A DNA stretch of 64,000 nt, from contig CANQYT010000002.1 of the NCBI GenBank assembly GCA_947628135.1, forward strand, positions 1-64,000, read 5' to 3'. The notes below the pieces were generated by a model, which saw only the letters and a list, made by a program, of their open reading frames with translations, had not been told where the DNA came from and searched no databases. This document shows positions 10,898-45,441 of the stretch, piece after piece (position 1 is the stretch's first letter; each line of letters starts with the position of its first letter). The position numbers and the translations under genes are program-made. The DNA is from an uncultured Clostridia bacterium (GTDB lineage: Bacteria > Bacillota > Clostridia > Christensenellales > CAG-314).

Positions 10898-12084
10898 AAA
10901 GTTTGCGCAATTTGTACAAGATAGGCATAGGTCCGTCCTCCTCCCACACGATGGGACCCGTCAAGGCGGTGGAGAGGTTTCTCGCCGAAAAGGGGGAATT
11001 CGACCGTTACACGGTGACGCTTTTCGGGTCGTTGGCGATGACGGGCAAGGGGCACGGCACGGACGCGGCGATTTTCCGCGCTTTCGGCAACAGGCGCGCG
11101 GAGGTTGTTTTCGACAAAGAAACCAAGTGCGTCCACCCCAACACTATGGAAATAACGGGTTACAAAGAGGGCTGCGACCCCGTGCGCGTTCAGGTGTTCA
11201 GCATAGGCGGCGGCGACGTTGTATTTGCGGGCGAAACTTTCGACGAGGGCGACGAAATTTATCCGCAAAACACCTTTCTGCAAGTCAAGGAATATTGCAA
11301 ACAACACGGCTTGCGCCTGTGGGAATACGCCCTTCGTTTCGAAAACGACGCTATTTGCGACTATATGCGGGAGATATGGGACGTTATGCAGCGTTGCGTT
11401 GACGACGGACTTTCCGCAGAGGGCGTTCTCCCCGGCGGGCTGAACGTTCAGCGCCGCGCAAAAATGCTGCTCAACGAATCCAACGACGTCACCCGTCACA
11501 CGCGCAGAGACAGGATAGTGGCAAGTTACGCCTTTGCCGTGGGCGAACAAAATGCCTCCGGCGGAGTTGTTGTCACCGCGCCCACTTGCGGTTCAAGCGG
11601 AGTGCTGCCCGCAGTAATGGTGTATGCCAAGCGGCAACAGGACTATTCCGACGAGGAAATATGCCGCGCGTTGCTTTCCGCGGGCATTGTGGGCAACGTC
11701 GTCAAGACCAACGCCTCCGTTTCCGGCGCGGAGTGCGGCTGTCAGGCGGAGATAGGCACTGCCTGCGCAATGGCTGCCGCCGCCCTCGCCGAGTTGTACA
11801 ATATGACGCTCGACGAAATAGAGTACAGCGCCGAAGTGGCGTTGGAACATCAATTGGGACTTACCTGCGACCCCGTTGACGGGCTTGTGCAGATACCCTG
11901 TATCGAGCGCAACGCCGTAGGCGCAATGCGCGCTATCAACGCCGTTAGTCTTGCGACGTTCCTTGCGGACAGCCGCAAAATTTCTTTCGACACGGTCGTG
12001 GGCGCGATGTACGAAACGGGCAAAGATCTGTCGGACAAATATCGCGAAACGGGCGCAGGCGGGCTTGCGAAAGTATACCGCTGA
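10894..12084 (+). CDS. sdaA: L-serine ammonia-lyase (single-chain, iron-sulfur)
   Basis: IGIGPSSSHTMGPVKA; APTCGSSGVLPAV; CDPVDGLVQIPCIERNA. Confidence 0.93.
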   Translation: MKSLRNLYKIGIGPSSSHTMGPVKAVERFLAEKGEFDRYTVTLFGSLAMTGKGHGTDAAIFRAFGNRRAEVVFDKETKCVHPNTMEITGYKEGCDPVRVQVFSIGGGDVVFAGETFDEGDEIYPQNTFLQVKEYCKQHGLRLWEYALRFENDAICDYMREIWDVMQRCVDDGLSAEGVLPGGLNVQRRAKMLLNESNDVTRHTRRDRIVASYAFAVGEQNASGGVVVTAPTCGSSGVLPAVMVYAKRQQDYSDEEICRALLSAGIVGNVVKTNASVSGAECGCQAEIGTACAMAAAALAELYNMTLDEIEYSAEVALEHQLGLTCDPVDGLVQIPCIERNAVGAMRAINAVSLATFLADSRKISFDTVVGAMYETGKDLSDKYRETGAGGLAKVYR

Positions 12085-12098
12085 ACGTTTGTATTTTT

Positions 12099-12140
12099 CA
12101 GCGCCGCGCCGACAAAACAACGGCGCGGTTATTTTGTTTG
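12099..12140 (+). terminator. Rho-independent terminator after sdaA
   Basis: CCGCGCCG-acaaaacaa-CGGCGCGG followed by TTATTTTG. Confidence 0.65.
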
Positions 12141-12196
12141 CGCGCCGCTTTTCGGATAAATTTTTTCTTAAAACCGTCGAATTTTTTACAAAGGTA

Positions 12197-12225
12197 TTTA
12201 CTTGCCGCCGTTGAGGGTGTATAAT
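12197..12225 (+). promoter_or_regulatory. Promoter for secreted nuclease
   Basis: TTTACT-N17-TATAAT. Confidence 0.55.
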
Positions 12226-12261: not shown

Positions 12262-13836
12262 ATGACACGATCGAGAAAAATCAGTCTGACGTTGGCGATT
12301 GCTCTCGTTGCGGTGCTTGTGTGCGTGTTCGCGCTGCCCTTTGCCGCGCGTCCCGAAGCGCAAGCCGCGCCACCCGTTGTGCCGGATCGCAACGGTTGGC
12401 AAAGCGCCTACACAGGCACGTACTACGACAATCTCAACACCGATCTCACGGGCACGGCGTTCAGGAGCGAGTTGGCGGAACTCATCACCGACACGCACAC
12501 AACTTGGACGGTCTACAACGGAACTTCCTCCTTGGCGCTCAACAACGTGTGGCCCAAGTCGGACGTAGCCGACCCCAAAAACCCCAACAACGGGCAGATA
12601 AAGTGGTTCTACACGGGCACGGTCACTTCCGCGAGCAATTTCGGAGGTAGCAATGGCACGACCAATCGCGAACACGTATGGGCAAAGAACGGCAAAGACA
12701 GCCTCACGTTCGGAAGCGGTTGGGCGGAAGCAGGACCGGGCGCTGACGCTCATCACCTGCGCCCGACGGAATGTCAGTTGAACAGCGGCAGAGGCAATCT
12801 CGGCTTTGACATTGTTCCGCAGACAAGCGGCAACATAGTTAAGCAAGACGACCGTACGGATTACGGTACGGGCGACGGTCTTTGCTACAAATCGGGCAGT
12901 TTCTTTTACCCCGCCAAGGGCTACCGCGGCGCAACGGCGCGAATATTGTTTTATATGCAAGTAAGGTGGGGCGACGCTTGCGCGCTTGATTTTGTAGACG
13001 GTGCAACAACCAACAACGGAAAGTATATAGGCAAAATTTCCACGTTGATGAGGTGGCACATCGAAGAACCGCCCAATGAGGACGAAATATATCGCAACAA
13101 TATCATCGCGGGCATTCAGGGCAACCGCAATCCTTTCATCGATCACCCCGAATTTGCCGAAATGATTTACTGCTACAACAACGCAAGTTACAGCAACACG
13201 CTCAGAAACGTGGTAGCCACGTATGGCAGTTATCTCAACGACAATCCCATTGTTCCGCCGGTAGGTGACGACGTTCCAACGGCTCTTACGCTTTCGGAAA
13301 GCAGCGTGACCTTGTCCGAGGGACAGTCGCGGCAAGTAAGCGTCACGGCGCAGCCGAGCGGCGCAAGCAACAGCGTCGTCTGGTCCAGCAGCGACGAAAA
13401 CGTAGCCACGGTGCAAAACGGTCTTATCGAGGCAAAGCGCGCGGGCGTGACGACTGTCACTGCAACAAGCACGCTGAACAGTTCCGTATCTGCAAGTCTC
13501 ACGGTGGCGGTGACAGCCGTCGGAGTGGAAACGGACACGAGCGCGTTTGAGGCGGCTATGGGTGAAATAGACGGAAAGACCGCCCTTGCCGAGCGGTATG
13601 CCGCGCTCGCCGACGCGATAAACGAATACAACAAACTTACCGCCGATGCAAAGGAAAGCGTGGCGCAGCAATACGCGGCTCTTCAAGAAGCAGTAAACAA
13701 GTACAACGAGGAAATTTCCGCCGTCAACGACGACGCGGTCGCCGCGACGGATCTCGCTTCGCAATCTTTGGCGTTGGGAATTTCGTCGGCGTTTTTGGCG
13801 CTTATAGCCATTCTTATCAAAAAGTTCGGGAGGTAG
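12262..13836 (+). CDS. Secreted, membrane-anchored endonuclease I family nuclease with bacterial Ig-like (Big2) domain
   Basis: Signal peptide; TNREHVWAKN...DAHHLRPTECQLNSGRGN (EndA/NucM-type His motif); Big2-type repeat ALTLSESSVTLSEGQSRQVSVTAQPSGASNSVVWSSSDENVATV; C-terminal TM LGISSAFLALIAILIKKFGR. Confidence 0.85.
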   Translation: MTRSRKISLTLAIALVAVLVCVFALPFAARPEAQAAPPVVPDRNGWQSAYTGTYYDNLNTDLTGTAFRSELAELITDTHTTWTVYNGTSSLALNNVWPKSDVADPKNPNNGQIKWFYTGTVTSASNFGGSNGTTNREHVWAKNGKDSLTFGSGWAEAGPGADAHHLRPTECQLNSGRGNLGFDIVPQTSGNIVKQDDRTDYGTGDGLCYKSGSFFYPAKGYRGATARILFYMQVRWGDACALDFVDGATTNNGKYIGKISTLMRWHIEEPPNEDEIYRNNIIAGIQGNRNPFIDHPEFAEMIYCYNNASYSNTLRNVVATYGSYLNDNPIVPPVGDDVPTALTLSESSVTLSEGQSRQVSVTAQPSGASNSVVWSSSDENVATVQNGLIEAKRAGVTTVTATSTLNSSVSASLTVAVTAVGVETDTSAFEAAMGEIDGKTALAERYAALADAINEYNKLTADAKESVAQQYAALQEAVNKYNEEISAVNDDAVAATDLASQSLALGISSAFLALIAILIKKFGR

Positions 13837-13840
13837 CGCT

Positions 13841-14431
13841 ATGAAAAAGAGATATTTCGCAATAGCGGCGGTACTTTTGGCAACGTTGATATGTCTTGCG
13901 GCGTGCAACGGCTCGGGCGAGATGATGAACGCCATCACAAATGCGCTGCGCGCCGATTACTCGCAAGCGACCGTCACCGTGCAAACGGAAAAAGGCGACG
14001 TAAAACTCGTCAGCACGTACGAAATCACTTTCGACGGCGACAACGCCTCCGTCGAGTACAACATTCAGAAGTTGCACGAACTCAATTGGGCTGCCAATCC
14101 CGACAACCCCGTCGAAACGTTCTCCGGTACGGCGCATTACGTCAACGGCATACTTGTGGACGGCGATCACAACGCAAATCTGTCGTCGGGAGAGTTGGAC
14201 TTTACGGGGTTCAGATTCAAGCAGAACTTTTTCACCAACGTCAAAACCTCCGAAAGCGCGTTCAGCGCGGACGTCGTCAACGCCAAAGCGTTTGTGGGCA
14301 ACGCTTCTTTCGACGGAACGAATATGAAAGTTTACGTCAAACTCAACGCCGACAAACTTGCCAAATTCTCGCTGAATTACCTTTCGGCAAACGGCTCGGA
14401 CGTGGCGGTGATATACGAATTTACGGCGTAG
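13841..14431 (+). CDS. Hypothetical lipoprotein
   Basis: MKKRYFAIAAVLLATLICLAAC lipobox signal peptide. Confidence 0.75.
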   Translation: MKKRYFAIAAVLLATLICLAACNGSGEMMNAITNALRADYSQATVTVQTEKGDVKLVSTYEITFDGDNASVEYNIQKLHELNWAANPDNPVETFSGTAHYVNGILVDGDHNANLSSGELDFTGFRFKQNFFTNVKTSESAFSADVVNAKAFVGNASFDGTNMKVYVKLNADKLAKFSLNYLSANGSDVAVIYEFTA

Positions 14432-14452: not shown

Positions 14453-14490
14453 GCCGCGGGCATTTTGCCCGCGGTTTCTTTTTTGTTTTT
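14453..14490 (+). terminator. Rho-independent terminator
   Basis: CCGCGGGC-atttt-GCCCGCGG followed by TTTCTTTTTTG. Confidence 0.85.
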
Positions 14491-14649
14491 ATTTTATATA
14501 TAAAATTATTTTAATTTTTTCGGCGGTTTTTGCCGAAAGTTTACCTAAAATTTACTTGACTACTGTAAAATGCTTGTTAAAGTGAGTTTTTGCGCTTATT
14601 TCCGTGCAAAACGCTTTGCAAATTTACCTCTGAAAAAGGAAAAAAACTT

Positions 14650-17600
14650 ATGCCCAAATTCAAAATCATATGTTTCATCGTCGCGGCAGTGCTTGCCGCC
14701 GTGGGAACAGTGGTCGTGTTGAGAAACCTCAGCAGCGACTACGTCCCGCCGACGAACACCAACGTAGAGGACTACAACACTTATCTCGACCGCACGGAGG
14801 ATATGGACATCACCGATCGCAGTCGGGACGTTACCGATTTCCTTTTTGTGGCGCACAAGCGGCTGCTCAGCGGCAGCGGCTTCAAGGGCGTGTCGGAAGG
14901 CGCATCAACTGCTGTTATGGGCATAAAGCAGAACGTCTTGAACACGCGTTACGTGGTGGGTGATTTTGCAAACAAAAGCGTATTCAAGGAAATGGTAACT
15001 ACGGGCGCGGTTTCCAACGCTTATCAACTGTATCTCGTGGACGCCAGCAAAAACGGCAGTTACGTTTACCGCGACAGCGACAGGATAAACGGTTTGCGGG
15101 ACGTGGTGTGGAGCAGCAGCGCAACTCCCCTTGCCTGGCAGCAATTTATGGACAGTTTCGGACACCGTTCCGACAAACTTACGGGTTACATTCTCAACCG
15201 CGACACCATCGCGGGAGGCGAGTTTGTGGGAGAGGAAAACGGTCTGTATACTTTCCGATACATATTGAAAACGGAAGAAGTCAGTTTCAACTACCCCGCG
15301 GAGGGCGGCGAAGTGGTTACCCTCCAACGCGGCGCGGCGGAAAAACTCTGCTACGAAATGGTTAAAAACGGCGGGTTGGAAAACTTGCCCACGTTTGAAA
15401 AGTGCGAGATCTACGTCACAATGGACGCGGATTTCAACATAAAAAGTTTGCGTACCGATTGCCGCTACGTGGCTCAGACTATGGGTATCAACGCAGGCTG
15501 TTCGGAAGACATAACGGAAACTTTCGAACCCTACGAGGGCGACCTGCCTTACAGCGATTTCTTTACCCCCTATCTGGGACAGACGGGCGGCTCTCTTGAC
15601 GAAAAAGCCACTCCGCTCGGAATGTTGACGGGGATGTTCTCGCCCTATCTCAACGGCGAGCGGTTGCAGGCGAAGTTGACCGTCCTCAACGGCGACAAAG
15701 CGTTTACCGACGCAATGGTTTCCATAGACGGTCTGGACATTGCAGACCTAAGCAAACTTTCGGTAGACCTTCGTCTCGGCGACCTCAACCTCAATTACTT
15801 ACACGGCGACGGCAAAATACTGTTCAATTACGGCGATTTCAACGCCTCAGCCTCCATCAGCGGCGTAACGGAACTTGTGGGTACGTTTTCCGCTCTTTTA
15901 GGCGAGCCGAGTACGGCTTCGGCAACTGCCGCAACGCAGGACTTGGACCTTTTGGCTCTGCTCAACGACCTACAATACGAACTTTCCGACGACGAACAAA
16001 TCTGCACGGTCACCCTGCCCCTAAGCGTGGCGGGTCTGGACATAAACGCCTCCCTTGTGGGAATTTCCAACGGCAGCGGTTACGATTTCAGTTACGCCGA
16101 CATAACTATCGGCGACGTAGCGTTGCACGTGGAGTTGCAAAGTTGGTCTCCCGCACAGATAGACGCCAACGCTTCGGAAATTCTCGGTATAGCCGATTTG
16201 ATAGAGGACGGCAAACTGTCTCTTACGGCAAACGTCGAAATTCCTCTCTTCGACAGAACGTACAGCGTAACTGCCGACGTTCTCGCCGACCTTGCTTCAA
16301 AAGCAGTCCGCGCGCACGCGGTATTGGGCAGCAACGGCGAATTGGACGCGGTGTATATTGACGGAACGGCGTATCTTGCGCTGGGCGACAACCTCAAATT
16401 CAAGTTGGACGTATCTCAAACGGACAAGTTGCAAGAAATCGCGGAAAATTTGACTTCGAAATTGGGCGGCGGCGTTCTGCCCGATACAAACGCGGCGCAT
16501 CTGTTGACGCTGTTCGGCGGCGTGGACGTGCTCACCGACATAAACGGCGTTGATTTGCAGTTTGCGATAGGCGAAATGCGCGTAACTCTCCGTCTCGCGG
16601 ACCGCGGCGGACGTTGGCAAGTGGAAAAGATAACCGCCAACGGTTACGGCGTGGACGCGACAGTTGCGCCTGCCGATTCCTACGGCGACGTTTACGCGCC
16701 TGCGGACGCGGAACAATACGTGGACGTCACTCAACTTGCAGACGCCTTTGACGAGGCTGTATTGGAGGCGTTGGACGCGCAAGGTATAGGCGCAAAATTC
16801 GATCTTCAACTCACTCTCGGCGGCAAGACGTACCGTGCGGAGGGCAACGTGCTTCGCGACGCGCAAGGCAATGTCGAGGCAACAGCCGCGGTGTACGACG
16901 ACGAAGTGGGTATCCTCACCGCAAACGTAGTTTATTACGACCAAACTGTATATCTCACTGTCAACGGCGTAAAAGTCGCCTTTGCGGTAAGCGGCGGCGG
17001 TATCGACGCGGACGTTGTCGACGCGCTCGGAAAACTCGTCTCCGACGAACGGATAAGCCGACTGCTGGAAAGCGACGACGACGTTTCGGAACTTGTCGGA
17101 ACTGTCGGCGCGTTGGTGCAAAAAGTAAAAGATTTCGACGTCGAAAGTCTGTGGGATACGGACTTCACGGCGACGGTTACGCGTTTCCTGTTTGACGAGG
17201 GCGTACTTGCGGTAACTTTGGACGGCGCGGCGCTCGGCTTTGACGGCGCGCAACTCTCTTTCGACGTGTACACGGAAGAGGGCAGCCTCGCTTTGCGGCT
17301 GTACGGTTTGCCCGTTTCCGCCGATCCGCAAGGTACGGTGCGGCTTGTTACGGACGTGCCGACGGTGGAGCGCCCCGACGCGGAAGAATACGTGCTTACT
17401 CTCAGAGGCACTGTGTTCGGCGCGACCGCGGACGTCACGCTTGACCTTGCCAAGTCGGATATATGGGCAAGTGTGCATATCCGCAACGAAGAGTTGCTCG
17501 TCCGATTTGTCGGCGGCAAGTTGTACGCGGCATACGGCGGAATAAAGATAGTCCTTGACGTGACCGACGCGGGTACGTTGGGCAAACTTCAATCGCTTAT

Positions 17601-20600
17601 GGGCGACGTCGGCGCACCCGACCTTCCCGTTGCGGAAGTGGCGGCTATGCTTGCCGCGCTCAAAGCCGACTTTACGGGGGACAGCCCCGCGCTTTCGCTG
17701 GACGGCGAGGCGGTAAAAGTCAGCGTCAACTTCACCAATACGGACGGCAATCTGATGTTCGACGGTGTAAACGCGGAATTTACGCTGAACGGCGAAGTGT
17801 ACGAGGCGACTCTTGCGTGCGGCGACGCTCCCGCTTTCAAACTCGATACGGAACAACAATTCGTTGACGGCAACGCGCTTGTCGAAAGTCTTGCCGATAC
17901 AATAGCCACTTTCCGCGGCGGAAATGCGGCAATACACGCCGCTCTCGACTTCACGTCGGGCAGCGACGCTTACTGCGCAGAGATATTCGTCGATTGCGGC
18001 GACGTACTGCGCGTGCGGATTATCCTCACCGATAAGGCGGCGAACGTAACGCTCGTATCTGCCGAAATTATCTATATTGCTCAGGGTGCGCAAGGTACTT
18101 TGTATATCGACGTCAACGGTATCCGTCAGGCGGTGAGTATGACTTCCTTGCAGCAGAGCGGCGGCGAATCCGTCCTTGGACAACTTGTCGGTATAGCCAA
18201 CGAGTTCAAAGGCGTAAGCGACGTTACGGACGACCTGTTCGATGTGTTCGACAAACTTGCGCAGGGCGCGAAAGATTTCGTATATTCTCAATTCCTTTCC
18301 GATCTGTACGAAACGGAAGGCAGGTACTGCCTTGCGCTTGATTTGCGGCAAATAGGTCTCGGTACGGCAAACGTTACGTTCGGCTTGGGTAGCGACCCGT
18401 CGGTAAGCGTAACGGGACTGTCGATAGGAAATATCTCTGCCGACGTAACGGCGGAAGTAAGCATATCCGACGCCGTTGTCGAAGAACCTTCGGCAAGCGA
18501 CTACGTAACGGAATTTACGTTCCGTCTCGGCGAGATGGACGGCAAAGCGCGCGTAGACGTATACAATCGTTACGCTTGCGGCGAACTGTCATTAAAAGAC
18601 GGCAGCAAATTGCTGTTTGAGTACTCCGACGGCGCTGTGTATTTGCAATACGGCGAAATTTCGCTCACGGCAAAAGCGGCGGACGCGAACGAGTTGTTGA
18701 AACTCATCGGTAAATTTACGGATTTGCCGCAAATGCCGCAATTTACGGCGGAACAGGCGGCTGCAACGGTGAAAGGGCTGCTCGCTCAACTTTCCTGCCG
18801 TCGCGGCAACACGGCGGACGGTTACGCTCTGACGGTGGATTACCGCGAAGCGTCCGTCACAGCCGACTTTGCGTGCGGCGAGGGAACGGCGGCGCTTTCG
18901 GGCGTGACGGTAGTGTACGGCGGAACGACGATTTCCGTGCAAATCGCAACAACTCCGCTCACCTTTACCGATATAGACAAAACCGCCGATTTCGTAGACG
19001 TGACGGAAGTGGCGCAGTTGTTTGCGCAACCCGTTGCCGATTTACTGCAATTCCGCAGTTTCGGCTCGGACAACATAGAAATGAATGTAACGTTGGGCGG
19101 CAAGACCTACGTCGTAAACGGCAGTTTTGCTCGCGACGGCGAGGGAACGATGCGCTTCAAAGCGACGTTGCTCGACGGCGAACTCGGCATTGCCGACGTT
19201 GACGTGATAGTCGTCGGCGGCAACGTGTATCTGACGGTAAACGGCGTAAAGGCGGCGTTCAAAGTGCCCGACGTCGGCGGTAACGTCGATTTCGGCGCGG
19301 TTATGGAGCAACTTGCCGCAAACAAGCAGGCAGAGCAACTGCTTTCAGCCTATCCCGAAGCGGCGGAACTCATCGACCAAATTGGCAAAGTCGCCTCTGC
19401 GTTCGCTCGGTTCGATGTGTCCGATACGAATTTCGGCGCGATGTTTGCTTCGCTGCGCTTCGAAAACGGCGAACTTGCTCTCGGCGTAAACGCAAGCGCG
19501 TTTGAGTTGGGCAACTTCACGCTGACTTTGAGCCTGGACGACGGCAAGTTGGCGGTAGGCTTGCGCGACTTTGCGTTGGCAAGCGTAAAACTGCAATCGG
19601 TTAGCGCAACGCTGTACGGCGGCGCGGACGAAATACAAAAACCGTCCTCCGACGATTACGTGATAAGTCTCGCTATCAACGGCTTCGGCGCGGACATAGA
19701 CCTCGTTGCCGACCTGTACAATATGGACGTGTGGGCGACGGTCGCCTTCCGCCGCGACCCCGTTGAGGGCATACACGTCAACGAAACGGCGCAACTGCGC
19801 TACGTCAACGGCAATTTGTACGTCAATTTCAACAACGTAAAACTTGTGTTTGCCTCGAAAGAATTGGGCAAAGCGGTAAGCCGCCTCGTCGGACTGCTTT
19901 CAACGGGCGAAAGCGCGCTGCCGCAATTGGACGACGTTCTGTCGCGGCTTGTGTTCGACCTCGTCGGCGAAAGTCACTCCATTTACTACAACGGAGAGGA
20001 CTTCGACGTGCAAGTCAACTTCAAGCAGGCAAGCGACAAACTGTTCTTCGACGGTATCACGGCTGACGTGGGCGGTCAACGCGTCACGGTGCAGATGCAG
20101 GAAGCGTCCTTCGACAAATTGGAAACAGACGGCGGCTACGTATTTGCGGACGGCAATTTGCTGCTTGACAAACTTGCGGACATTTTGCAGACGGTAAAAC
20201 AAGCCGACGGGCTCAGCGCGCAGTTCGATCTCAATTTGACGTTGAACGGAAGCAGTTACATAGCGCACGTGGGACTTACGTACAACAGCGGACTCGAAGT
20301 GAGTTTTGTACTTACGGACAGCGCCGAGCAACTCATCGCAAACGGCAAACTGATTTACGTAAACGACGTGCTTTACATAGACGTAAACGGCGTCAAACAG
20401 GCTGTCGCTTTGGACGGCAAAGAGGATGACGGCGAACCCTTCCGCCTCGCCAATCTCAAAACGGCTCTCAAAGAGTACCTCGGCATACACGACGTTCTGG
20501 ACGAAGTGATACGCTTTGTCAACGCTCTGCCCGACAAACTTACGGACGAAACCAACGTTCCGACCATTTCCGCGCTGATAGGCGGTTTGACCTTGGACGC

Positions 20601-23600
20601 GCAAAACAACGTGGTGCTTACTCTTGCCGCAAGCAAATTGGGCTTGACGGGAGACGTTGCGATTACCGTCGGAACTGACGACAAACTTCAATACGTCACC
20701 TTTGGCACGGGCGAAGTGCGTTTGGGAGACGCGTTGTCGCTCAGCGCCGAGGGCACTTTGAAGCCCTGCGGCGACCCCGTTACCGCTCCCGATCCGTCCG
20801 ATTACGTAACGGAACTGAACGTCGAACTGTTTGTGGACATACGTTCCGACGAGCAGGCGGCTGTCGCGCTTTCGGACGACGGCAAACTTAAAATAACCGT
20901 CGGTTTGCGGCTGGATCTGTTCAACGATCGCGTGTTCGGTACGGCGGGCTTCAACGGCAACAGCGTCACTTTCGAGTTGAGGCTGAACAGCGGCAACCTG
21001 TTCGTTGTGCTGGGCGGCGTCAACGGCGGCAGCAAACTGAAATTCAACATAAATACGGATATCGACGAGATACGTACGGCGCTTGCCGAATTGGGCTTTA
21101 CCCTGCCCGAACTGAATTTGGGCGGCGATGCGGTTACTACCGTCAAGTCGTTGCTCGACGGCATCGGATATTCGCGCACGCAAAACGGCTACGCGTTGAG
21201 TTTGGCATTGGACGGCATTTCCGTCGGAGTGGGCTTCAACGTGGAGGACGGCGGCGTATCCCTCGGCGACATAAGCGTCAACGGCGGCGGCTTTGACGTC
21301 AACGCCCGTCAGACTGCGAAAAACGACGCCAACAAAGGCTTGCCCGACGCAGAAAAACATATCGACGAATATCTCTCCGCCGCGGATACGCTCGGCGAAC
21401 TTCTGCCCGCGGTGGCTGCTCTGACAAAGTGCGACAGTTTCGCTGTCGACTTCGACGGAGTGGTGACGTTGGGCGGAAAGACCTACGACCTTGTCGCGTC
21501 GGTGAACGTGGTCGGTTCAGACGCGTACATCAGGATAGAATCGTTGCTCTACGACGGCAAACGCGTCACCCTCATCAAAGAAGGTCAATTGTGGATAGTG
21601 GACAACGTCCTGTACGTGGATATCGGCGGTATCAAAGTAAAGGTGAATCTCGCAGGTAGCGGCGATGCCGACAGCCCCGCAGCCGTCTCAAACGACGCTC
21701 TCGGCGGAACTCTCAACGGACTTCGCGGCTACAACGACTATCTCGACAAACTGTTGAATCTCGTCGAAAGCGTCGTCTCAACCGACTTACTGTCCTGCAA
21801 TTTCACCGATATGATACACATCTCCAAAGAAAAAGGCGCGTACAAACTTACCGTAAACGGCGGGCTTTGGAACGTGTCCGAGTTTACCGCTACGCTTTCC
21901 GTCCTCGGCAGTAAGCCCGACGGACTGCAATTGTCGATAAGCGACTTCGTCTACGGCGACATCGCGTTCGACTGCAACAAACTTTCCGTCACCAACCTCG
22001 GCAGTATCACCGCTCCGCCGGAAAACGACGATTGGACCACCAACCTCGACATAAGCGTAGAGGACGGAACGGACATCACAAACACCATTCATCTCCGTCT
22101 CGATCTGATAGAAATGATGGTGTACGTGAAGATAGAGTCGCAGGACACTCACGAGGGCGCTGTGGACACGACTATGTACGAACTGTACGTAAAGTACGAC
22201 ATCACCGCCAACAAACTGTGGCTGTCCAACCGCGGCGACGCCAACGTTTCGGTGGACATCAACGACATCAGCAGTATCGTAGCGGAAATAAACGACGTCG
22301 TAAACAAGGTTGCCAAGGAACAGCACAACTTTGAGTTGCCCAACCTCTTCCAAGGCGGTTTCAACCTCAAAGACATTTTCGACACGCTGGAATTTGTCCA
22401 CGACAGTCAAAAGAACGGCATAGGTATCACTTTCGACGCAATGGGCTTCTCCATAGAGGCGCTTGTGGGCGACAACGCGTTCTCTGCGGACATCGACGTG
22501 CGCAGTATCTTCGAGGACACCGACCTGCACGTTGCGGGCGCGTCCGACAGCGTACACAGAGCGTTTGCCGACGAAATGGATTCCCGTATAAGCGGCGGCA
22601 AGGTAAACTACGTGGCGGTGGACGAAGTGTTCGACTACCTGTTCTACGGTCCTAACGGCAATTTGGACGGCAGCAAGGACAACAACGGCGTAATGTACGA
22701 CCTCGTCGAAACCAACGCTTGGCGCTTCGATTTCAGAGGAGACACAAACAACGACAAGCACAGCAACGTCATTATCGACAGTACGGACTCGGCAGGCAAC
22801 CCCGTCACCGACAAGTACCGCATAGCGCCCGGCTCGTACATTGTTTTCGCTTTCAACAAGTCGGATACGTCGTTCAGTATGAACCAACTGCTGCATACCT
22901 TCGGCGAGAGCAAAGACGACGGCTATCGCGACCTGTTCATACTGCTCAACACCCTGCAACTGCGCGCAAAACTTACCTTGCAGAAGTACAATTCCGCAAC
23001 CAAAGCCTATTCCGATATGTTGTATCTGGACATCGCGTTGCTCAGATATGCGGGCGGCGGAACGGCTGACAGCGCAAAGGCGCGCCTGTACATAAGTTAC
23101 GACACAAGCCACGCCGACGGCAGAAGCGGCGAACTCAACGCCACGCTCAGTCTCGACGCGCTGGACGACGTGATAAGTCTTAAAGACGCACTCGACAACG
23201 TTCTCGGCGGCGCTATCACAAATCTCGTAACGAAGATTTCCGATATGATCGCCGAAATGAAGAATAACACGCCCAAGATGCAACTTGGCAGACTTGCCCG
23301 TCTGTTCTCCGCAGTCACTTACGGCGGCGACGGCAACAACTTCGGTATCACCGTCAACGGCAAAGCCCTCAGCGACAAGTTGGGCACAATCGACCTCAAC
23401 GTAAGCGCTTACAACGGCACGCAGGGCAGCAACGTCGCTGCGGCGGAGCGGCGCGGCAGAGGTCTCACGGTAAACGAACTCGCGTTTGCCTACGGCGGCT
23501 TGTCGTTGGAGTTGGTAAACGTCGACGTGTCCGCGTCCACCTACGAGACAGTTGAGGGCACAGAGGGCACGCAGAGCCGCACCTACGACTACGTGACCTA

Positions 23601-24735
23601 CGGCATAAACGGTTACCGCGCCGACCACGGCACGCCCGTAACCAAAGCCGTAAACAACGTGGAAGCCAATTCCGCCTACGACAAGACTAACGACCACGGC
23701 TACGATATGAGCAAGTTTATGAACTTCGACAGCCTGTACGAACTCGCCGCCTCGTTGGTGATAACCGCCGGCAACGAAGATACAAACGGCAGAAGGTCGT
23801 TTGAAATAAGCGGTACTCTGCACGTTGACATCTTGTCTATCTACAACGTTGACATAGACTTGAAGATGTATGCCGATATAGACGAACACGGCGACAGTTA
23901 CTTCGCTGTACGATTGGTGCGCCCGGACAAAACCGTATTCGATGACAAAGGCGGCTACTCTTACTTGACGTTTACTACCAACGACGGAAACGGCAACCCC
24001 GTATTCAATATTTACAGGGATTCGCGGCTTAACAACAGATGTCCGCAATGTGGCTCTACAAACGTTAAGTATAGATATGACATTACGTTTAAGTATGATT
24101 GCAAAGATTGCGGCGCACAAAAGATAAGCCCCGTGGACGGCAAGTTGGATTCGGACTTTGATATGAAATACGCATACAGCGAGACGAATATCGCGCCGGG
24201 AGAATTCCTGGACAACCTGATACAAAACAAAAAGTATCTGTTTGAATTGCTCAACTTCGGAAGCACTATCGAAAATCTGATAGTGGACCAGATCAACAAT
24301 CCCGACGCAAAGGTGTTCGGCGTGGACTACGGCATAGAAGATATTCTCGACACGGGCGAGTCCTACAACTACGGCGACGCCACCGACAACGACGGCAAAG
24401 CGGTTGCGGGACACAAACAATTCCAAATCAAAGCCAACCTCAGCCCCATTTCCAGCGCGTTGGGCACGCTGGACGTCAAGATACATCACAGCGGCGACTT
24501 CAACAATTTGATGAAGTGGAATCCCGCAACGGGCAAGTACGAGTACGACAATAACAAACTTGCCGCTATCAAGTTGGATCGTCTGTGCGGCGGACTGAAC
24601 ATAATCAGTATCGTGCATATCAATTTCGATTTGCAACATTCCACCCCGGGTTACGGCACTGCGCGCTACTTTACTTCGGACCTGCCGCAACTGTGGAGGG
24701 ACAGCGCCGCCTGGACAACGCCTCATCTTCTTTGA
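14650..24735 (+). CDS. Giant (~3361 aa) extracytoplasmic modular repeat protein of unknown function
   Basis: Start MPKFKIICFIVAAVLAAVGTVVVLRNL (signal anchor, no lipobox); uninterrupted ORF; recurring (V)TLGGKTY and VYLTVNGVK/LYIDVNGVKQAV landmarks at ~380-aa spacing; predicted beta-rich. Confidence 0.85.
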   Translation: MPKFKIICFIVAAVLAAVGTVVVLRNLSSDYVPPTNTNVEDYNTYLDRTEDMDITDRSRDVTDFLFVAHKRLLSGSGFKGVSEGASTAVMGIKQNVLNTRYVVGDFANKSVFKEMVTTGAVSNAYQLYLVDASKNGSYVYRDSDRINGLRDVVWSSSATPLAWQQFMDSFGHRSDKLTGYILNRDTIAGGEFVGEENGLYTFRYILKTEEVSFNYPAEGGEVVTLQRGAAEKLCYEMVKNGGLENLPTFEKCEIYVTMDADFNIKSLRTDCRYVAQTMGINAGCSEDITETFEPYEGDLPYSDFFTPYLGQTGGSLDEKATPLGMLTGMFSPYLNGERLQAKLTVLNGDKAFTDAMVSIDGLDIADLSKLSVDLRLGDLNLNYLHGDGKILFNYGDFNASASISGVTELVGTFSALLGEPSTASATAATQDLDLLALLNDLQYELSDDEQICTVTLPLSVAGLDINASLVGISNGSGYDFSYADITIGDVALHVELQSWSPAQIDANASEILGIADLIEDGKLSLTANVEIPLFDRTYSVTADVLADLASKAVRAHAVLGSNGELDAVYIDGTAYLALGDNLKFKLDVSQTDKLQEIAENLTSKLGGGVLPDTNAAHLLTLFGGVDVLTDINGVDLQFAIGEMRVTLRLADRGGRWQVEKITANGYGVDATVAPADSYGDVYAPADAEQYVDVTQLADAFDEAVLEALDAQGIGAKFDLQLTLGGKTYRAEGNVLRDAQGNVEATAAVYDDEVGILTANVVYYDQTVYLTVNGVKVAFAVSGGGIDADVVDALGKLVSDERISRLLESDDDVSELVGTVGALVQKVKDFDVESLWDTDFTATVTRFLFDEGVLAVTLDGAALGFDGAQLSFDVYTEEGSLALRLYGLPVSADPQGTVRLVTDVPTVERPDAEEYVLTLRGTVFGATADVTLDLAKSDIWASVHIRNEELLVRFVGGKLYAAYGGIKIVLDVTDAGTLGKLQSLMGDVGAPDLPVAEVAAMLAALKADFTGDSPALSLDGEAVKVSVNFTNTDGNLMFDGVNAEFTLNGEVYEATLACGDAPAFKLDTEQQFVDGNALVESLADTIATFRGGNAAIHAALDFTSGSDAYCAEIFVDCGDVLRVRIILTDKAANVTLVSAEIIYIAQGAQGTLYIDVNGIRQAVSMTSLQQSGGESVLGQLVGIANEFKGVSDVTDDLFDVFDKLAQGAKDFVYSQFLSDLYETEGRYCLALDLRQIGLGTANVTFGLGSDPSVSVTGLSIGNISADVTAEVSISDAVVEEPSASDYVTEFTFRLGEMDGKARVDVYNRYACGELSLKDGSKLLFEYSDGAVYLQYGEISLTAKAADANELLKLIGKFTDLPQMPQFTAEQAAATVKGLLAQLSCRRGNTADGYALTVDYREASVTADFACGEGTAALSGVTVVYGGTTISVQIATTPLTFTDIDKTADFVDVTEVAQLFAQPVADLLQFRSFGSDNIEMNVTLGGKTYVVNGSFARDGEGTMRFKATLLDGELGIADVDVIVVGGNVYLTVNGVKAAFKVPDVGGNVDFGAVMEQLAANKQAEQLLSAYPEAAELIDQIGKVASAFARFDVSDTNFGAMFASLRFENGELALGVNASAFELGNFTLTLSLDDGKLAVGLRDFALASVKLQSVSATLYGGADEIQKPSSDDYVISLAINGFGADIDLVADLYNMDVWATVAFRRDPVEGIHVNETAQLRYVNGNLYVNFNNVKLVFASKELGKAVSRLVGLLSTGESALPQLDDVLSRLVFDLVGESHSIYYNGEDFDVQVNFKQASDKLFFDGITADVGGQRVTVQMQEASFDKLETDGGYVFADGNLLLDKLADILQTVKQADGLSAQFDLNLTLNGSSYIAHVGLTYNSGLEVSFVLTDSAEQLIANGKLIYVNDVLYIDVNGVKQAVALDGKEDDGEPFRLANLKTALKEYLGIHDVLDEVIRFVNALPDKLTDETNVPTISALIGGLTLDAQNNVVLTLAASKLGLTGDVAITVGTDDKLQYVTFGTGEVRLGDALSLSAEGTLKPCGDPVTAPDPSDYVTELNVELFVDIRSDEQAAVALSDDGKLKITVGLRLDLFNDRVFGTAGFNGNSVTFELRLNSGNLFVVLGGVNGGSKLKFNINTDIDEIRTALAELGFTLPELNLGGDAVTTVKSLLDGIGYSRTQNGYALSLALDGISVGVGFNVEDGGVSLGDISVNGGGFDVNARQTAKNDANKGLPDAEKHIDEYLSAADTLGELLPAVAALTKCDSFAVDFDGVVTLGGKTYDLVASVNVVGSDAYIRIESLLYDGKRVTLIKEGQLWIVDNVLYVDIGGIKVKVNLAGSGDADSPAAVSNDALGGTLNGLRGYNDYLDKLLNLVESVVSTDLLSCNFTDMIHISKEKGAYKLTVNGGLWNVSEFTATLSVLGSKPDGLQLSISDFVYGDIAFDCNKLSVTNLGSITAPPENDDWTTNLDISVEDGTDITNTIHLRLDLIEMMVYVKIESQDTHEGAVDTTMYELYVKYDITANKLWLSNRGDANVSVDINDISSIVAEINDVVNKVAKEQHNFELPNLFQGGFNLKDIFDTLEFVHDSQKNGIGITFDAMGFSIEALVGDNAFSADIDVRSIFEDTDLHVAGASDSVHRAFADEMDSRISGGKVNYVAVDEVFDYLFYGPNGNLDGSKDNNGVMYDLVETNAWRFDFRGDTNNDKHSNVIIDSTDSAGNPVTDKYRIAPGSYIVFAFNKSDTSFSMNQLLHTFGESKDDGYRDLFILLNTLQLRAKLTLQKYNSATKAYSDMLYLDIALLRYAGGGTADSAKARLYISYDTSHADGRSGELNATLSLDALDDVISLKDALDNVLGGAITNLVTKISDMIAEMKNNTPKMQLGRLARLFSAVTYGGDGNNFGITVNGKALSDKLGTIDLNVSAYNGTQGSNVAAAERRGRGLTVNELAFAYGGLSLELVNVDVSASTYETVEGTEGTQSRTYDYVTYGINGYRADHGTPVTKAVNNVEANSAYDKTNDHGYDMSKFMNFDSLYELAASLVITAGNEDTNGRRSFEISGTLHVDILSIYNVDIDLKMYADIDEHGDSYFAVRLVRPDKTVFDDKGGYSYLTFTTNDGNGNPVFNIYRDSRLNNRCPQCGSTNVKYRYDITFKYDCKDCGAQKISPVDGKLDSDFDMKYAYSETNIAPGEFLDNLIQNKKYLFELLNFGSTIENLIVDQINNPDAKVFGVDYGIEDILDTGESYNYGDATDNDGKAVAGHKQFQIKANLSPISSALGTLDVKIHHSGDFNNLMKWNPATGKYEYDNNKLAAIKLDRLCGGLNIISIVHINFDLQHSTPGYGTARYFTSDLPQLWRDSAAWTTPHLL
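16738..22020 (+). repeat. Five tandem ~380-aa coding modules within the giant protein
   Basis: GGKTY-type landmark codons (Tyr) at 16831, 17971, 19108, 20257, 21483 (spacing 1140, 1137, 1149, 1226 nt). Confidence 0.7.
24031..24135 (+). other. Zinc-ribbon-like insertion (CPxCG...CKDCG) within giant protein
   Basis: NNRCPQCGSTNVKYRYDITFKYDCKDCGAQKI; codons AT-richer than flanks (AGA, ATA, AAG, TAT). Confidence 0.6.
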
Positions 24736-40140: not shown

Positions 40141-42885
40141 TCATTGCTGCGCTTCGACCTCGTCTTTCGGCGTTTCGACGGGTTGGGCTTGCGGCTGTTT
40201 CGCGTTCAATATGCGGTTCAATTCCGTTGCGACGATTTGCAGCACGGCAAATAACATCGTTTGGTAAACTATACAAATATTAGTATATTGAATGAAAATA
40301 ATTTCAAGGGCAATAATTATGGCGTACCACACGTAACTTACATAGTTCAAGACGCGCGTTGCCTTGCAGTCGCCCTTTTTCAGTTGCACAACGGCGAAAG
40401 CCACCGCGTACGCGCAGGAAATTGCGGCGAAGGATATCAATGGCCACACAATGGGGGAGAAGTCGTAGTAGTTCTTTTGCAACAGTTGGTAAAGACTGAT
40501 ATTCACCCAATAACCGTCCATCACGGGCGCTGCGAAGAGTGCCCACAGCAACACTGCCCACAAGGCAAACAGCGTGAGCGGCGCGTATTTCAGCATAGTG
40601 CGCGCGATTTTGTTTTTGATTTCAGCGTCTTTTTCTTCATCGACCTTTTGTGTGCCACGTTTGAAGTCCGACACGGTTGCGGCAACTTGCAGCAGTGCAA
40701 ATACCGCCGTCAGCGAGATGACTACGGCGACAAAACTGCCGTTTGTTCCCGCAAACACGCTTACGCAAATTATTATTGCAACGTGGCACAGGTAACTTGC
40801 AACGTTGAGGACGAATTTTACAACGGTGTTGCCCTTCCATTGTGCAACGGCGAATGCCGCCGCGTACGCGCAGGAAATTGCGGCGAAAGATATCAACGCC
40901 CGCGCAGCGGGGAAGAGATAATTCATAGTTTCGGGGAAGAGATAACTCGTAGTTTCGTCTTGCAGCAGTTGGTAAAGATTGACGTTTTCAATATAATATT
41001 CGCCGTCCACTCTCACGTATCCCTCTGTTACGGGCGCTGCGAAGAGTGCCCACAGCAACATTGCCCACAAGGCAAACAGCGCAAGAGGCGCGTATTTAAG
41101 CACAGTGCGCAGAGTTTTGCTTTCCGTCAGACGTTTGCGCGCGGGCTTTTGTTCGCCGCTAACGTTTTGTTCGGCAGCGGTGAGTTCGCCGCCGTATCCC
41201 GCGTCGTATTCCTTTGCGATTCTTTTACGAGCCGAGGAAATTGACATTAACTGCAACGCAACGGGAAGCAAAGTAAATATGAAACCGAGAGCCGCAAATG
41301 TAGAAAGAAGTGCGTTTGCCCATTTATCTGTCAATTCAGTTAAGGCGGCAGCAGCAAAAATAATGTCGATTACAGACCACGCCAATTGACAGACGGAAAG
41401 AGTCAAACCTACGGCCCATTGTTTTTTTAGCATAAAACAGCCCGCCGCTATTGCAATGGCGATATAAAATACAAGATAAATCCAAGCTATTGATACGTCT
41501 GAATTTTCCTCTGCTGTGTTTTGGAATAACGTTCCTGTTCCCAAATAATGCAAAAAAACTGTACAAAGCAACATTGAAAAAGTAATTGTCGCGGCGGATG
41601 CGCACCGTATTTTCTCCTTTCTCAAACGCTTGTTTATTTCTCTCTCGCGGAGCAACCGCGCTTTCAGTTTTTCCTTGAAAGCGGCGAGTTCCTTTTTGTC
41701 GAGGGTCTCAATGCCGAATTTGCTACGCAGTACGGTTGCGGCGGCTTGCAACACAGCAAATACCGCTGTCAGCGAGATGACCACCGCGACAAAACTTCCG
41801 TTTTCGTCCTCCAAATCGCCCATAAATTCTTTCATCTTTCCCGCAAACACGCCTGCGCAAATTATTATTGCAACGTGCCACAGGTAACTTGCAACGTTGA
41901 CGGCGAATTTTACAACGGTGTTGCCCTTCCATTGCGCAACGGCGAATGCCGCCGCGTACGCGCAGGAAATTGCGGCGAAAGATATCAACGCCCGCGCAAC
42001 GGGGAAGAGGTCGCTCATAGTTTCGTCTTTCAGCAGTTGGTAAAGATTGACGTTCTCCATCAAAAAGCCGTCTCCCGCTATTACCGGCGCGGCGAAGAAC
42101 GCCCACAGCAACGCCGCCCACAGCGCAAACAGCGCAAGGGGCGCGTATTTCAACGCAATGCGCGCGACTTTGTTGTTGATTACAGCGTCTTTTTCTTCAT
42201 TGAACTTTTGTATGAAGCCTTTGAAACTCAGTACCGTTGCCGTCGCTTGCAACACAGCAAATACCGCTGTCAGCGAGATGACCACCGCGACAAAACTTCC
42301 GTTTATGTCCTCCAAACCGTCAGTAAACTCTTTCATCTTTCCCGCAAATACGCCTGCGCAAATTATTATTGCAATGTGCCACAGGTAACTTGCAACGTTG
42401 AAAACGAATTTTACAACGGTGTTGCCTTTCCATTGCGCAACGGCGAAAACCGCCGCGTACGCGCAGGAAATCGCGGCGAAGGATATCAACGCCCGCGCAA
42501 CGGGAAAGAGGTCGCTCATCATCTCGTCTTTCAGCAGTTGGTAAAGAGTGACGTTCTCAATCAAAAAACCGTCTCCCGCTATCACCGGCGCGGCGAAGAA
42601 AGCCCACAGCAACGCCGCCCACAGCGCAAACAGCACAAGGGGTGCGTATGTCAACGCCGTGCGCACAGTTTTGTTGTTTGCAAGCGCCGCGTCGCCCTTT
42701 GCTTGTTTAGCCTTGTACTCGCTCGATTCTCCCAACAGGTCGTATCCGCAATTGCTGCAAAACCTTTGGTCTTTATGCAACTCGGCGCTGCACCTGGGAC
42801 ACACTTTTGGCGCGTCGGAAGCCGTTCCGCAGTTGGGGCAGAAGTTTCCTTCATATTCCGTGCCGCATTTTGTGCATTTGTTCAT
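40141..42885 (-). CDS. Zinc-ribbon multi-TM protein with four internal TM repeats, unknown function
   Basis: N-terminal MNKCTKCGTEYEGNFCPNCGTASDAPKVCPRCSAELHKDQRFCSNCGYDLLG; repeats of (K/T)YAPLxLFALWAxLLWAFFAAPV...ARALISFAAISCAYAAxFAVAQWKGNTVVKF. Confidence 0.85.
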   Translation of the reverse strand: MNKCTKCGTEYEGNFCPNCGTASDAPKVCPRCSAELHKDQRFCSNCGYDLLGESSEYKAKQAKGDAALANNKTVRTALTYAPLVLFALWAALLWAFFAAPVIAGDGFLIENVTLYQLLKDEMMSDLFPVARALISFAAISCAYAAVFAVAQWKGNTVVKFVFNVASYLWHIAIIICAGVFAGKMKEFTDGLEDINGSFVAVVISLTAVFAVLQATATVLSFKGFIQKFNEEKDAVINNKVARIALKYAPLALFALWAALLWAFFAAPVIAGDGFLMENVNLYQLLKDETMSDLFPVARALISFAAISCAYAAAFAVAQWKGNTVVKFAVNVASYLWHVAIIICAGVFAGKMKEFMGDLEDENGSFVAVVISLTAVFAVLQAAATVLRSKFGIETLDKKELAAFKEKLKARLLREREINKRLRKEKIRCASAATITFSMLLCTVFLHYLGTGTLFQNTAEENSDVSIAWIYLVFYIAIAIAAGCFMLKKQWAVGLTLSVCQLAWSVIDIIFAAAALTELTDKWANALLSTFAALGFIFTLLPVALQLMSISSARKRIAKEYDAGYGGELTAAEQNVSGEQKPARKRLTESKTLRTVLKYAPLALFALWAMLLWALFAAPVTEGYVRVDGEYYIENVNLYQLLQDETTSYLFPETMNYLFPAARALISFAAISCAYAAAFAVAQWKGNTVVKFVLNVASYLCHVAIIICVSVFAGTNGSFVAVVISLTAVFALLQVAATVSDFKRGTQKVDEEKDAEIKNKIARTMLKYAPLTLFALWAVLLWALFAAPVMDGYWVNISLYQLLQKNYYDFSPIVWPLISFAAISCAYAVAFAVVQLKKGDCKATRVLNYVSYVWYAIIIALEIIFIQYTNICIVYQTMLFAVLQIVATELNRILNAKQPQAQPVETPKDEVEAQQ
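40200..42680 (-). repeat. Four intragenic direct repeats (~500 bp) in zinc-ribbon TM gene
   Basis: Highly similar DNA copies; shared landmarks spaced 501 bp (42571 vs 42070) and 507 bp (41030 vs 40523). Confidence 0.8.
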
Positions 42886-43194
42886 TTTGTTTTCCTCCCG
42901 ATATTTGTATTTCGGCATCAAAAAAAAGTGCCGCTCCTTGCGAAGCGACACTGCAAAGCGCCTCTTCGCATAGCTGCGACACTAGTTTACAATACCCCTA
43001 TTGTATAGGAATGTGATTGCGCGAATAAGGAACACTTTACCTAAGTAAAGTATGTCCTAAACAATAAAGGTATTAAACTGTGTCGCAATTTTCATTTTAC
43101 AACAGTTGGGAAAATATGTCAATCCGCCGCGAATACAAAAGTAAATTTTGTACCGCAAGTCGGTTTTGCCGCCCGCGACTTCTTAAATACACGC

Positions 43195-43549: not shown

Positions 43550-43701
43550 ATTCTCTTTGCGCCGCGAGTCCTCGTGGAGCGGTGCATAGCGGCGCGAACA
43601 TATCATATCAATAACAAGTTTAACTCAAAACATTGACAAAATTTGCGCGCGCTGTTACAATATAGTGCAGAACACGGTTGCAAAGTGCGCCAAGGAGACA
43701 A

Positions 43702-45441
43702 ATGAACGAAAGTATACTCGAACCCGTCAAGTCCTATTTCGGAGAGTACCGCGACAAGTTCAAACAACTTGCCGAGCAGTATTTTGACGAGTTGGTCAAG
43801 CAATCGGGGATATCCCCCGAAGAAAACGCGGTTATCGTCGCGGAAAGAAACAAAGCCGTTGCCGCTTTCAACGCCGCCGACGCGGTCAATCGCAGAAACA
43901 AAGGTCTGAGAGCCTTTTTGATAGTGATGTCCGTGTTGCTTGTCGTTGCGGGCGTTGTCACCTGCGCCCTGCTGTGGACGGACGTTTTGCAGTGGGTGGG
44001 CATTTTGGTCGCGGCGCTTTGCGTTGCGGGCGCGGGCGCGCTCATTGCCGTTGTTTGCACGGTACTCAACAAACGCATAAAGGAAGGCAGCCTCGTTGCC
44101 GACGGTCACAAAAAGCAAATAGAGGACGCGGAACGCCGCGCTTGGCAGCAAATGCTGCCCCTCAACGCCAAATACGATTGGAACATACCCAACAAACTCA
44201 TTTACGAAACCACGCCGCAGATACTGTTGGACAAGTACTTCGACGAGGACAAACTGGACTACTTCGACAAACGGTGCAACCTCGCCGCCTACGACGAAAA
44301 CAGTTCCGCCTTGTGCGTAAAGAGCGGCAACAGCAACGGCAGACCCTTTTTGCTGACGCGCTTTTTGCGGCAGAGTATGCAGGCGCGCACCTACACGGGT
44401 ACGCGCGTCGTCACCTGGACGGAAACGGTGCGGGATTCCAACGGTCACACACGCACGGTAACCTGTTCGGAAACGCTCGTTGCGTCGGTGGTAAAGCCCG
44501 CGCCCGTCTATTTCCCCGTCACGTACCTGTTTTACGGTTGCGACGTCGCTACGGAATTGCATTTCCGCCGTTCGCCCACCGTGCCGCACAACGCCGACGA
44601 CAAAAAGATAGACAGCCTCGTAAAAAAAGGCGAAAAGGCGTTGGAAAAGAAAGCGCGCGAGGCGGTGTCCGACGGACGCGATTTCAACAAACTTGCCAAC
44701 AGCGAGTTCGAAGTGCTGTTCGGCGCGGACGACCGCGACAACGAAGTGCAGTTTCGGCTTATGTTTACGCCGCTTGCTCAACGCAATATGGTGGAACTGC
44801 TTCGCAGCCGCGAGCCGTACGGAGACGATTTCGACTTCGGCAAGTACGGCGCGGTAAACGTGATAAGTTCCGCGCACGGCGCTCGCCTCGCGATAGAAGC
44901 CGACCCCGCCGAATTTGTAAATTTCGATTTGGCAAAGGCGCGCGAGCATTTCGTAGAGTTCAACTGCGAGTACTTCCAATCCGTTTACTTCGACTTTGCG
45001 CCGCTGTTTTGCATACCGCTCTACACGCAGGACGCGCCCGACAACAAATTCGGCGAATGTACCTCTCACGGCAACATAGGCAGTTGGGAGGCGGAAGCGG
45101 TGGCAAACCGTTTCGACCGCAGAAAACTTGCGCCGCCCGAGTCGGCTACGGAGTGTATCCTCAAAGCGGAAACGACCGTCGGCGAGGAATTTACCTCGGT
45201 GCGGGTAACCGCGCACTCTTTCAAGGCTATCCCTCAGATAGAGTACGTTCCGCGTATATGCCGCAACGGCTACACCTACGAAGTGCCCGTGCCTTGGACG
45301 CTGTACGTCCCCGTCGAACAAGATTCCAACCTCGAAATGCGTGCGCTTGACGTCAGCCGAGAGGAATTCGACCGCACCGACGGCGACGACGCGCTGTTTG
45401 TGGCGGGCATAAAGGCGAAGATATTGTCTGGCGGAGAATAA
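43702..45441 (+). CDS. Conserved hypothetical membrane protein, LemA-associated
   Basis: TM pair FLIVMSVLLVVAGVVTCALLW..VGILVAALCVAGAGALIAVVC; located directly upstream of lemA. Confidence 0.7.
   Translation: MNESILEPVKSYFGEYRDKFKQLAEQYFDELVKQSGISPEENAVIVAERNKAVAAFNAADAVNRRNKGLRAFLIVMSVLLVVAGVVTCALLWTDVLQWVGILVAALCVAGAGALIAVVCTVLNKRIKEGSLVADGHKKQIEDAERRAWQQMLPLNAKYDWNIPNKLIYETTPQILLDKYFDEDKLDYFDKRCNLAAYDENSSALCVKSGNSNGRPFLLTRFLRQSMQARTYTGTRVVTWTETVRDSNGHTRTVTCSETLVASVVKPAPVYFPVTYLFYGCDVATELHFRRSPTVPHNADDKKIDSLVKKGEKALEKKAREAVSDGRDFNKLANSEFEVLFGADDRDNEVQFRLMFTPLAQRNMVELLRSREPYGDDFDFGKYGAVNVISSAHGARLAIEADPAEFVNFDLAKAREHFVEFNCEYFQSVYFDFAPLFCIPLYTQDAPDNKFGECTSHGNIGSWEAEAVANRFDRRKLAPPESATECILKAETTVGEEFTSVRVTAHSFKAIPQIEYVPRICRNGYTYEVPVPWTLYVPVEQDSNLEMRALDVSREEFDRTDGDDALFVAGIKAKILSGGE

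Follow-up and report, generated by a model that had tools for sequence, protein, structure and literature searches.

A membrane-anchored giant protein of a Clostridia bacterium predicted to carry at least 12 LolA-fold half-barrels in tandem

A giant protein encoded by an uncultured Clostridia bacterium appears, from structure models and sequence comparison, to be a chain of at least 12 (perhaps 15) LolA-fold half-barrels. The stretch of DNA analysed here (the window) covers 64,000 nucleotides and is the start of a 150-kb contig in a 1.66-Mb assembly that is 95% complete. The giant gene occupies positions 14650-24735 of the forward strand, where an ATG at 14650 opens a single uninterrupted frame of 3361 aa. 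End-to-end orthologues (39-40% identity) are present in three other species of the genus (G008, G018, and G012), and most of the other species have longer or shorter versions. Therefore, the frame is a real and conserved gene. Known proteins of the LolA fold are carriers or sensors with one or two domains. The fold itself is not new, whereas a tethered tandem array with 12 or more of these domains is undescribed as far as the tools used and the open-access literature show. That literature yielded nothing relevant on tandem LolA domains or on giant proteins of this kind.

The original prediction was of an anchored extracytoplasmic protein of about 3361 aa, and this has been borne out by the unbroken frame and a lone hydrophobic segment. 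The only strongly hydrophobic window of the protein is a helix at aa ~5-25 (14662-14724, + strand), and anchoring at the N-terminus is strongly supported. Outside this helix the protein is soluble and acidic (481 D+E versus 242 K+R). The prediction also held that no lipobox is evident. This is correct for the protein of the window, although some relatives possess one. A Cys at aa 8 (14671-14673), where the anchor helix begins, does not vary among 14 family members that were aligned, though it lies outside any lipobox. The anchor is followed by an N-terminal domain (aa 34-330; 14749-15639, + strand; alignment A6) that marks the family across the order, either alone or fused. Part of this domain is LolA-like in an AlphaFold model, in which confidence is low at aa ~120-178.

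The remainder of the protein is dominated by repeats. A blastp comparison of the protein with itself gave no off-diagonal matches, and offset scoring and profile alignment were used instead. Self-comparison had been suggested as the check for periodicity, and in these two forms it recovers the repeats. The best self-match is at an offset of 759 aa, with a BLOSUM score of 142 versus a maximum of 48 in 20 shuffles, and offsets of 757, 756, 763, 1142, and 413 aa likewise score above the shuffled maximum. In the profile self-alignment, modules two apart match with E values down to 1e-43 whereas neighbours reach only about 1e-13, which supports the earlier proposal that a two-module unit was duplicated. 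The proposal of ~380-aa modules is half right. The periodicity is far above that of shuffled sequence, but the true unit is half as long and the array begins earlier, at aa 331. The first halves of the modules are homologous to the second halves (hhalign P 96.5, E 7.8e-10), and short periods can be seen directly in distant relatives: 167 aa (L128), 168-190 (L127), 181-194 (L122, L123, and L131), and 221 (L132). A hierarchy with a basic repeat unit of ~190 aa, two units in each 380-aa module and a 760-aa pair of modules is shown by these comparisons.

All parts of the array lie on the + strand. Two extra units at aa 331-690 precede module 1. These are unit U (aa 331-535; 15640-16254), which is homologous to the second-half units (E 6e-10), and unit b0 (aa 536-690; 16255-16719), which resembles the second half of a module and has a profile match to aa 1295-1484 (E 1.8e-19). 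Both are modelled with six plus five strands. Profile self-alignment and a module tree then define module 1 (aa 691-1070; 16720-17859), also modelled as two LolA-fold units, module 2 (aa 1071-1448; 17860-18993), the first unit of which is modelled in part, module 3 (aa 1449-1831; 18994-20142) and module 4 (aa 1832-2241; 20143-21372). Module 5 (aa 2242-2620; 21373-22509) has two predicted LolA-fold units, each with six plus five strands.

The tree, built from 45 modules of 10 genomes, places modules 1 and 3 in one clade (type A, support 100/100), modules 2 and 4 in another (type B, 100/99) and module 5 in a third (type T, 100/99). From these sequences the module order is read as A-B-A-B-T. The order first proposed was A-B-A-B-B. 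Its A/B alternation stands, but its fifth module belongs to a clade of its own. The best pairwise profile match of module 5 is to type A, an assignment that was dropped because of the tree. The landmark GGKTY-type codons need correction. They had been placed at 16831, 17971, 19108, 20257, and 21483, whereas exact GGKTY codons are found at 16819, 19096, and 21472, about 12 nt away, and modules 2 and 4 have degenerate versions in their place (GSDAY and NGSSY).

The LolA fold was identified in two AlphaFold models. Model 1 covers aa 34-1200 (24 sequences, mean pLDDT 71.5 and mostly 75-89 inside units, pTM 0.44) and model 2 covers aa 2237-3361 (8 sequences, mean pLDDT 69.4, pTM 0.56). Each ~190-aa unit in the models mostly has a lead helix, and then six strands, two or three helices and five strands. 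This order, which is a count of strands from secondary structure rather than a sheet order from coordinates, recurs in model 1 in five successive stretches, the fifth of them partial, and in model 2 in each half of module 5. Foldseek comparison of model 1 with the PDB returned LolA (several species), LolB, LppX, LprG, and LprF at probability 1.00 (E 1e-4 to 4e-3, target TM-score mostly 0.45-0.55) and MucB/RseB at 0.87-0.99. Model 2, a different region, returned LolA, LprG, LolB, and RseB at 0.9-0.99. The E values are modest because a long model with many domains served as the query, and the Foldseek table gives no matched query region. It is the concordance of the matches that bears the weight. 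LolA/LppX was among the folds originally put forward for checking, and of these it is the one that the matches support.

The sequence searches give a different picture. Pfam and NCBIfam have no match to the repeats up to E 10. No relative was found in the PDB by sequence or by module-profile search, and none of these searches matched the repeats to a curated LolA, LppX, or LprAFG family. A structural match without a family match argues for membership of the fold, not of any named family. That the units have the LolA fold is strongly supported by the models. There are 12 units over aa 331-2620, of which six complete and one partial are seen in the models and the others are assigned by homology. 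The amphipathic character claimed for the beta modules was confirmed for the predicted strands of module 5 (3.88 versus 1.98 +/- 0.31 shuffled). This is strong enough to indicate one hydrophobic face.

The array leads into a C-terminal head (aa 2621-3361; 22510-24732, + strand), which is defined by the model and by 47-60% identity with the C-terminal parts of close orthologues. Within it a match to the first-half units spans aa 2750-3000 (P 89, E 2e-6), and the final ~330 aa look partly like the unit fold. The head probably contains one or two more LolA-like units. The only Pfam or NCBIfam matches in the entire protein are weak zinc-ribbon matches at aa 3124-3159. They mark a zinc-ribbon-like CxxC...CxxC insert at aa 3131-3154 (24040-24111, + strand; PF12760, E 0.0019, below cut-off), which is a disordered loop in the AlphaFold model and is variable among orthologues. 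The C-termini of orthologues (L060-L066) have scattered CxxC or C...C motifs of differing spacing, with many in L066 and none in L067-L069.

The number of modules is not fixed. Relatives within the genus range from ~1420 to about 4800 aa. The ~2400-aa proteins are A-B-T, and others are A-B-A-B-T and longer. The A-B-T versions make the AB pair the unit of change, and sequence comparison strongly supports growth of the array by duplication of AB pairs. The longest case comes from G002, in which one contig reads A-B-A-B-A-B-A up to its end and another carries B-T-head, with a 77-mer in common (L058 and L079). If the two pieces join, they would together give about 4800 aa. On the first of these contigs 867 different 100-mers are repeated within the gene and two A modules are only 0.04 changes per site apart, the mark of a recent duplication. 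The 77-mer common to the contig ends fits a break of the assembly graph inside a repeat. Repeats are probably the reason why contigs break inside the giant gene in several genomes. Among close orthologues the ends and the middle evolve differently. Identity is 43-77% over the N-terminal ~400 aa and the last ~160 aa, whereas in the middle it is about 25-48% per 200-aa block.

The family extends beyond the genus. With a profile of the N-terminal domain, 63 of the 297 genomes from the order give a match, and a class-wide draw yielded only one genome outside the order. Another scan of the collection was seeded with alignment A2, as A1 was too diverged. Open frames of the wider family reach 6238 aa across the order, and in some members (L115, L127, L132, and L069) a lipobox-like motif replaces the bare anchor. 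One family, whose reduced genomes measure ~1 Mb, encodes the N-terminal domain and the array separately, in adjacent genes with 2-15 bp between them (L133, L134, L135, L137, and L138), and this split suggests joint action of the two parts. The L133 array and the G166 giant (L124) have List_Bact (InlB-type) repeats close to the C-terminus, above the Pfam cut-off. They are marginal in L070 and below cut-off in L125. The L070 frame (1956 aa, from G021) lies on a 6.8-kb contig and resembles the versions of other families. It is possibly a contamination, and so a weak example only. The C-terminal part of another family's giant (L131:3523-6222, - strand) has a sub-threshold Hint-module match (E 9.5e-4).

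A survey of neighbours in related genomes, also among the checks first suggested, recovered the gene order. Usually in the genus this is serine dehydratase, response regulator, histidine kinase, endonuclease I, lipoprotein and giant gene, followed by nusG and ribosomal genes. The window has a secreted endonuclease I with a Big_2 domain and a C-terminal hydrophobic tail (12262-13836, + strand; PF04231 E 1.4e-31, PF02368 E 6.7e-12) and then a 196-aa lipoprotein with the lipobox LAAC and no Pfam family (13841-14431, + strand). No sequence homology to the modules was seen in either this lipoprotein or the N-terminal domain. The response regulator and histidine kinase, which most of the genus has between serine dehydratase and nuclease, are missing here (12084-12202, compared with L058-L065). 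In relatives, the upstream genes of 224 and ~400 aa might have encoded a Lol/MacB-type ABC transporter, but Pfam identifies them as the response regulator and histidine kinase. A terminator-like stem (14453-14475, + strand; 10 pairs, 8 of them G-C, with a T-rich tail) separates the lipoprotein from the giant gene, and a weak promoter-like site follows at 14556-14583. Both are consensus matches only. These signals suggest that the giant gene is transcribed separately from the lipoprotein gene.

The nuclease-lipoprotein pair persists at the syntenic site where the giant gene is absent. In G021 (L154) the lipoprotein gene is followed by rplK within 2 kb, on one contig and without the giant gene, and the serine dehydratase is 81% identical. 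The pair likewise lacks the giant gene at that site in G022 (L155) and G003 (L158), and G003 has a giant gene on another contig. Therefore, the giant gene is an accessory one with no fixed tie to the pair. An obligatory operon of the three genes was rejected on these grounds and because of the intervening stem. G003 also has two tandem nuclease-lipoprotein pairs.

How does the protein compare with systems already described? LolA and LolB (PDB 9azz, 9c89, 8cm1, and 1iwm) are alike in the fold of each ~180-aa unit (probability 1.00, target TM-score 0.46-0.55). However, they are single soluble or lipid-anchored domains that serve the outer membrane, whereas here at least 12 domains form a tethered chain in a genome without Omp85, and no sequence similarity was found. 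LppX, LprG, and LprF (PDB 2byo, 3mh8, and 4qa8) match each unit at probability 1.00 (target TM-score 0.54 for LppX) and are membrane-anchored outside the cytoplasm, but they are single-domain lipoproteins and the giant protein has no Pfam match to their family. The lipid-sensing regulator MucB/RseB (PDB 6jau and 2v42) also has a LolA-like half-barrel (probability 0.87-0.99), but is a periplasmic protein of two domains that binds an anti-sigma factor. GerS of Clostridioides difficile is a clostridial protein with a LolA-like half-barrel of 11 strands, a likeness taken from its published description, and differs in having one domain per chain, forming a domain-swapped dimer and activating the amidase CwlD (PMC8496864). 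The giant adhesins of Gram-positive bacteria share tandem modules, copy-number variation and conserved ends with it, and InlB-type repeats with some of its relatives. However, this genome has no sortase match, Pfam and NCBIfam show no known adhesin domain in the protein, and it has an N-terminal anchor and a putative stalk of LolA-fold units. A giant adhesin was also among the original suggestions, and the copy-number variation and the InlB-type repeats of relatives bear on it only indirectly.

The favoured explanation, which we give about an even chance of being right, is that the array is a surface stalk that spans the wall with the conserved head outermost. In this monoderm clostridium the N-terminal helix would hold the chain on the outer face of the cytoplasmic membrane. 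From there the chain would run outward through the peptidoglycan, with the C-terminal head as a contact-making tip and a reach set by the AB copy number. Omp85 was found neither in the window genome nor in ten relatives, and sortase (PF04203) had no match in the window genome (G000), the assembly of which is 95% complete. This leaves the N-terminal helix as the only visible tether. Conserved ends with a fast-evolving middle are what would be expected of a spacer between two working ends. Also in favour are the InlB-type repeats near the C-terminus of some relatives, the accessory nature of the gene and an AB number that varies between species. Against this, the head has no recognised binding domain, and model confidence is moderate (pLDDT ~70). 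To our knowledge, relatives of the LolA fold bind lipids or proteins rather than serve as spacers.

The main rival, less likely than the stalk, is that the units each hold an acyl chain or other hydrophobic ligand. The chain might then store lipids, capture them from the gut lumen or pass them between the membrane and the outer wall, like LprG/LppX or Lol carriers in series. The best fold matches are indeed carriers of lipids or lipoproteins, some relatives are lipobox proteins, and the half-barrel of MucB has a large hydrophobic cavity (PMC7400510). The amphipathic strands of module 5 fit too, but would be expected of any one-sheet protein under helices, and GerS shows that a LolA-like fold can be a protein activator (PMC8496864). 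Also against it, there is no second membrane to receive the lipids (no Omp85), no transporter gene adjoins the giant gene, and a close relative does without it. The stalk and the amphiphile-binding array are not exclusive of each other. The concave faces of the beads in a stalk may still accommodate amphiphile tails, although the stalk role has no need of that. It seems unlikely that a dozen or more lipid-carrier domains pass amphiphiles along one covalent chain through the thick wall of a bacterium with a single membrane, as a bead-chain counterpart of bridge-like lipid transport. If they did, the reach of that transport would be set by gene-internal duplication. The precedent of GerS and CwlD in a clostridium (PMC8496864), together with protein binding by MucB/RseB (PMC7400510), raises the idea of units strung through the wall to dock or activate enzymes of the cell wall or secreted partners. 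In most of the genus the giant gene adjoins those for a secreted nuclease and a lipoprotein, but this pair also persists without it, no wall enzyme is a regular neighbour and the middle modules diverge fast, which makes such a scaffold quite improbable. A continuous beta-groove of the AsmA/TamB/VPS13 kind, one of the original suggestions, is very improbable indeed. Great length, richness in beta strands, an N-terminal anchor and weak Foldseek matches to the long-groove proteins LptD and ApoB100 speak for it. However, those matches have a probability of 0.20 or less, helices break the 11-strand units every ~190 aa, the whole-protein Pfam scan has no AsmA/TamB/DUF490-type domain and there is no second membrane to bridge.

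Can lipid-carrier half-barrels serve as a structural stalk, or can tethered chains of carriers capture or move lipids in single-membrane gut bacteria? The family, with its natural range of sizes, its pairs of genomes with and without the gene and its two-gene version, makes this testable.

Elsewhere in the window, a 936-aa protein (40141-42951, - strand) has a double zinc ribbon at its N-terminus, and four hydrophobic segments of similar sequence (APLxLFALWAxLLWAxFAAPV) are distributed over its length. A 587-aa protein of no Pfam family (43678-45441, + strand) adjoins a LemA-family gene (45513-46178), and a secreted protein of 530 aa (52300-53892, + strand), also of no Pfam family, has a C-terminal hydrophobic tail.
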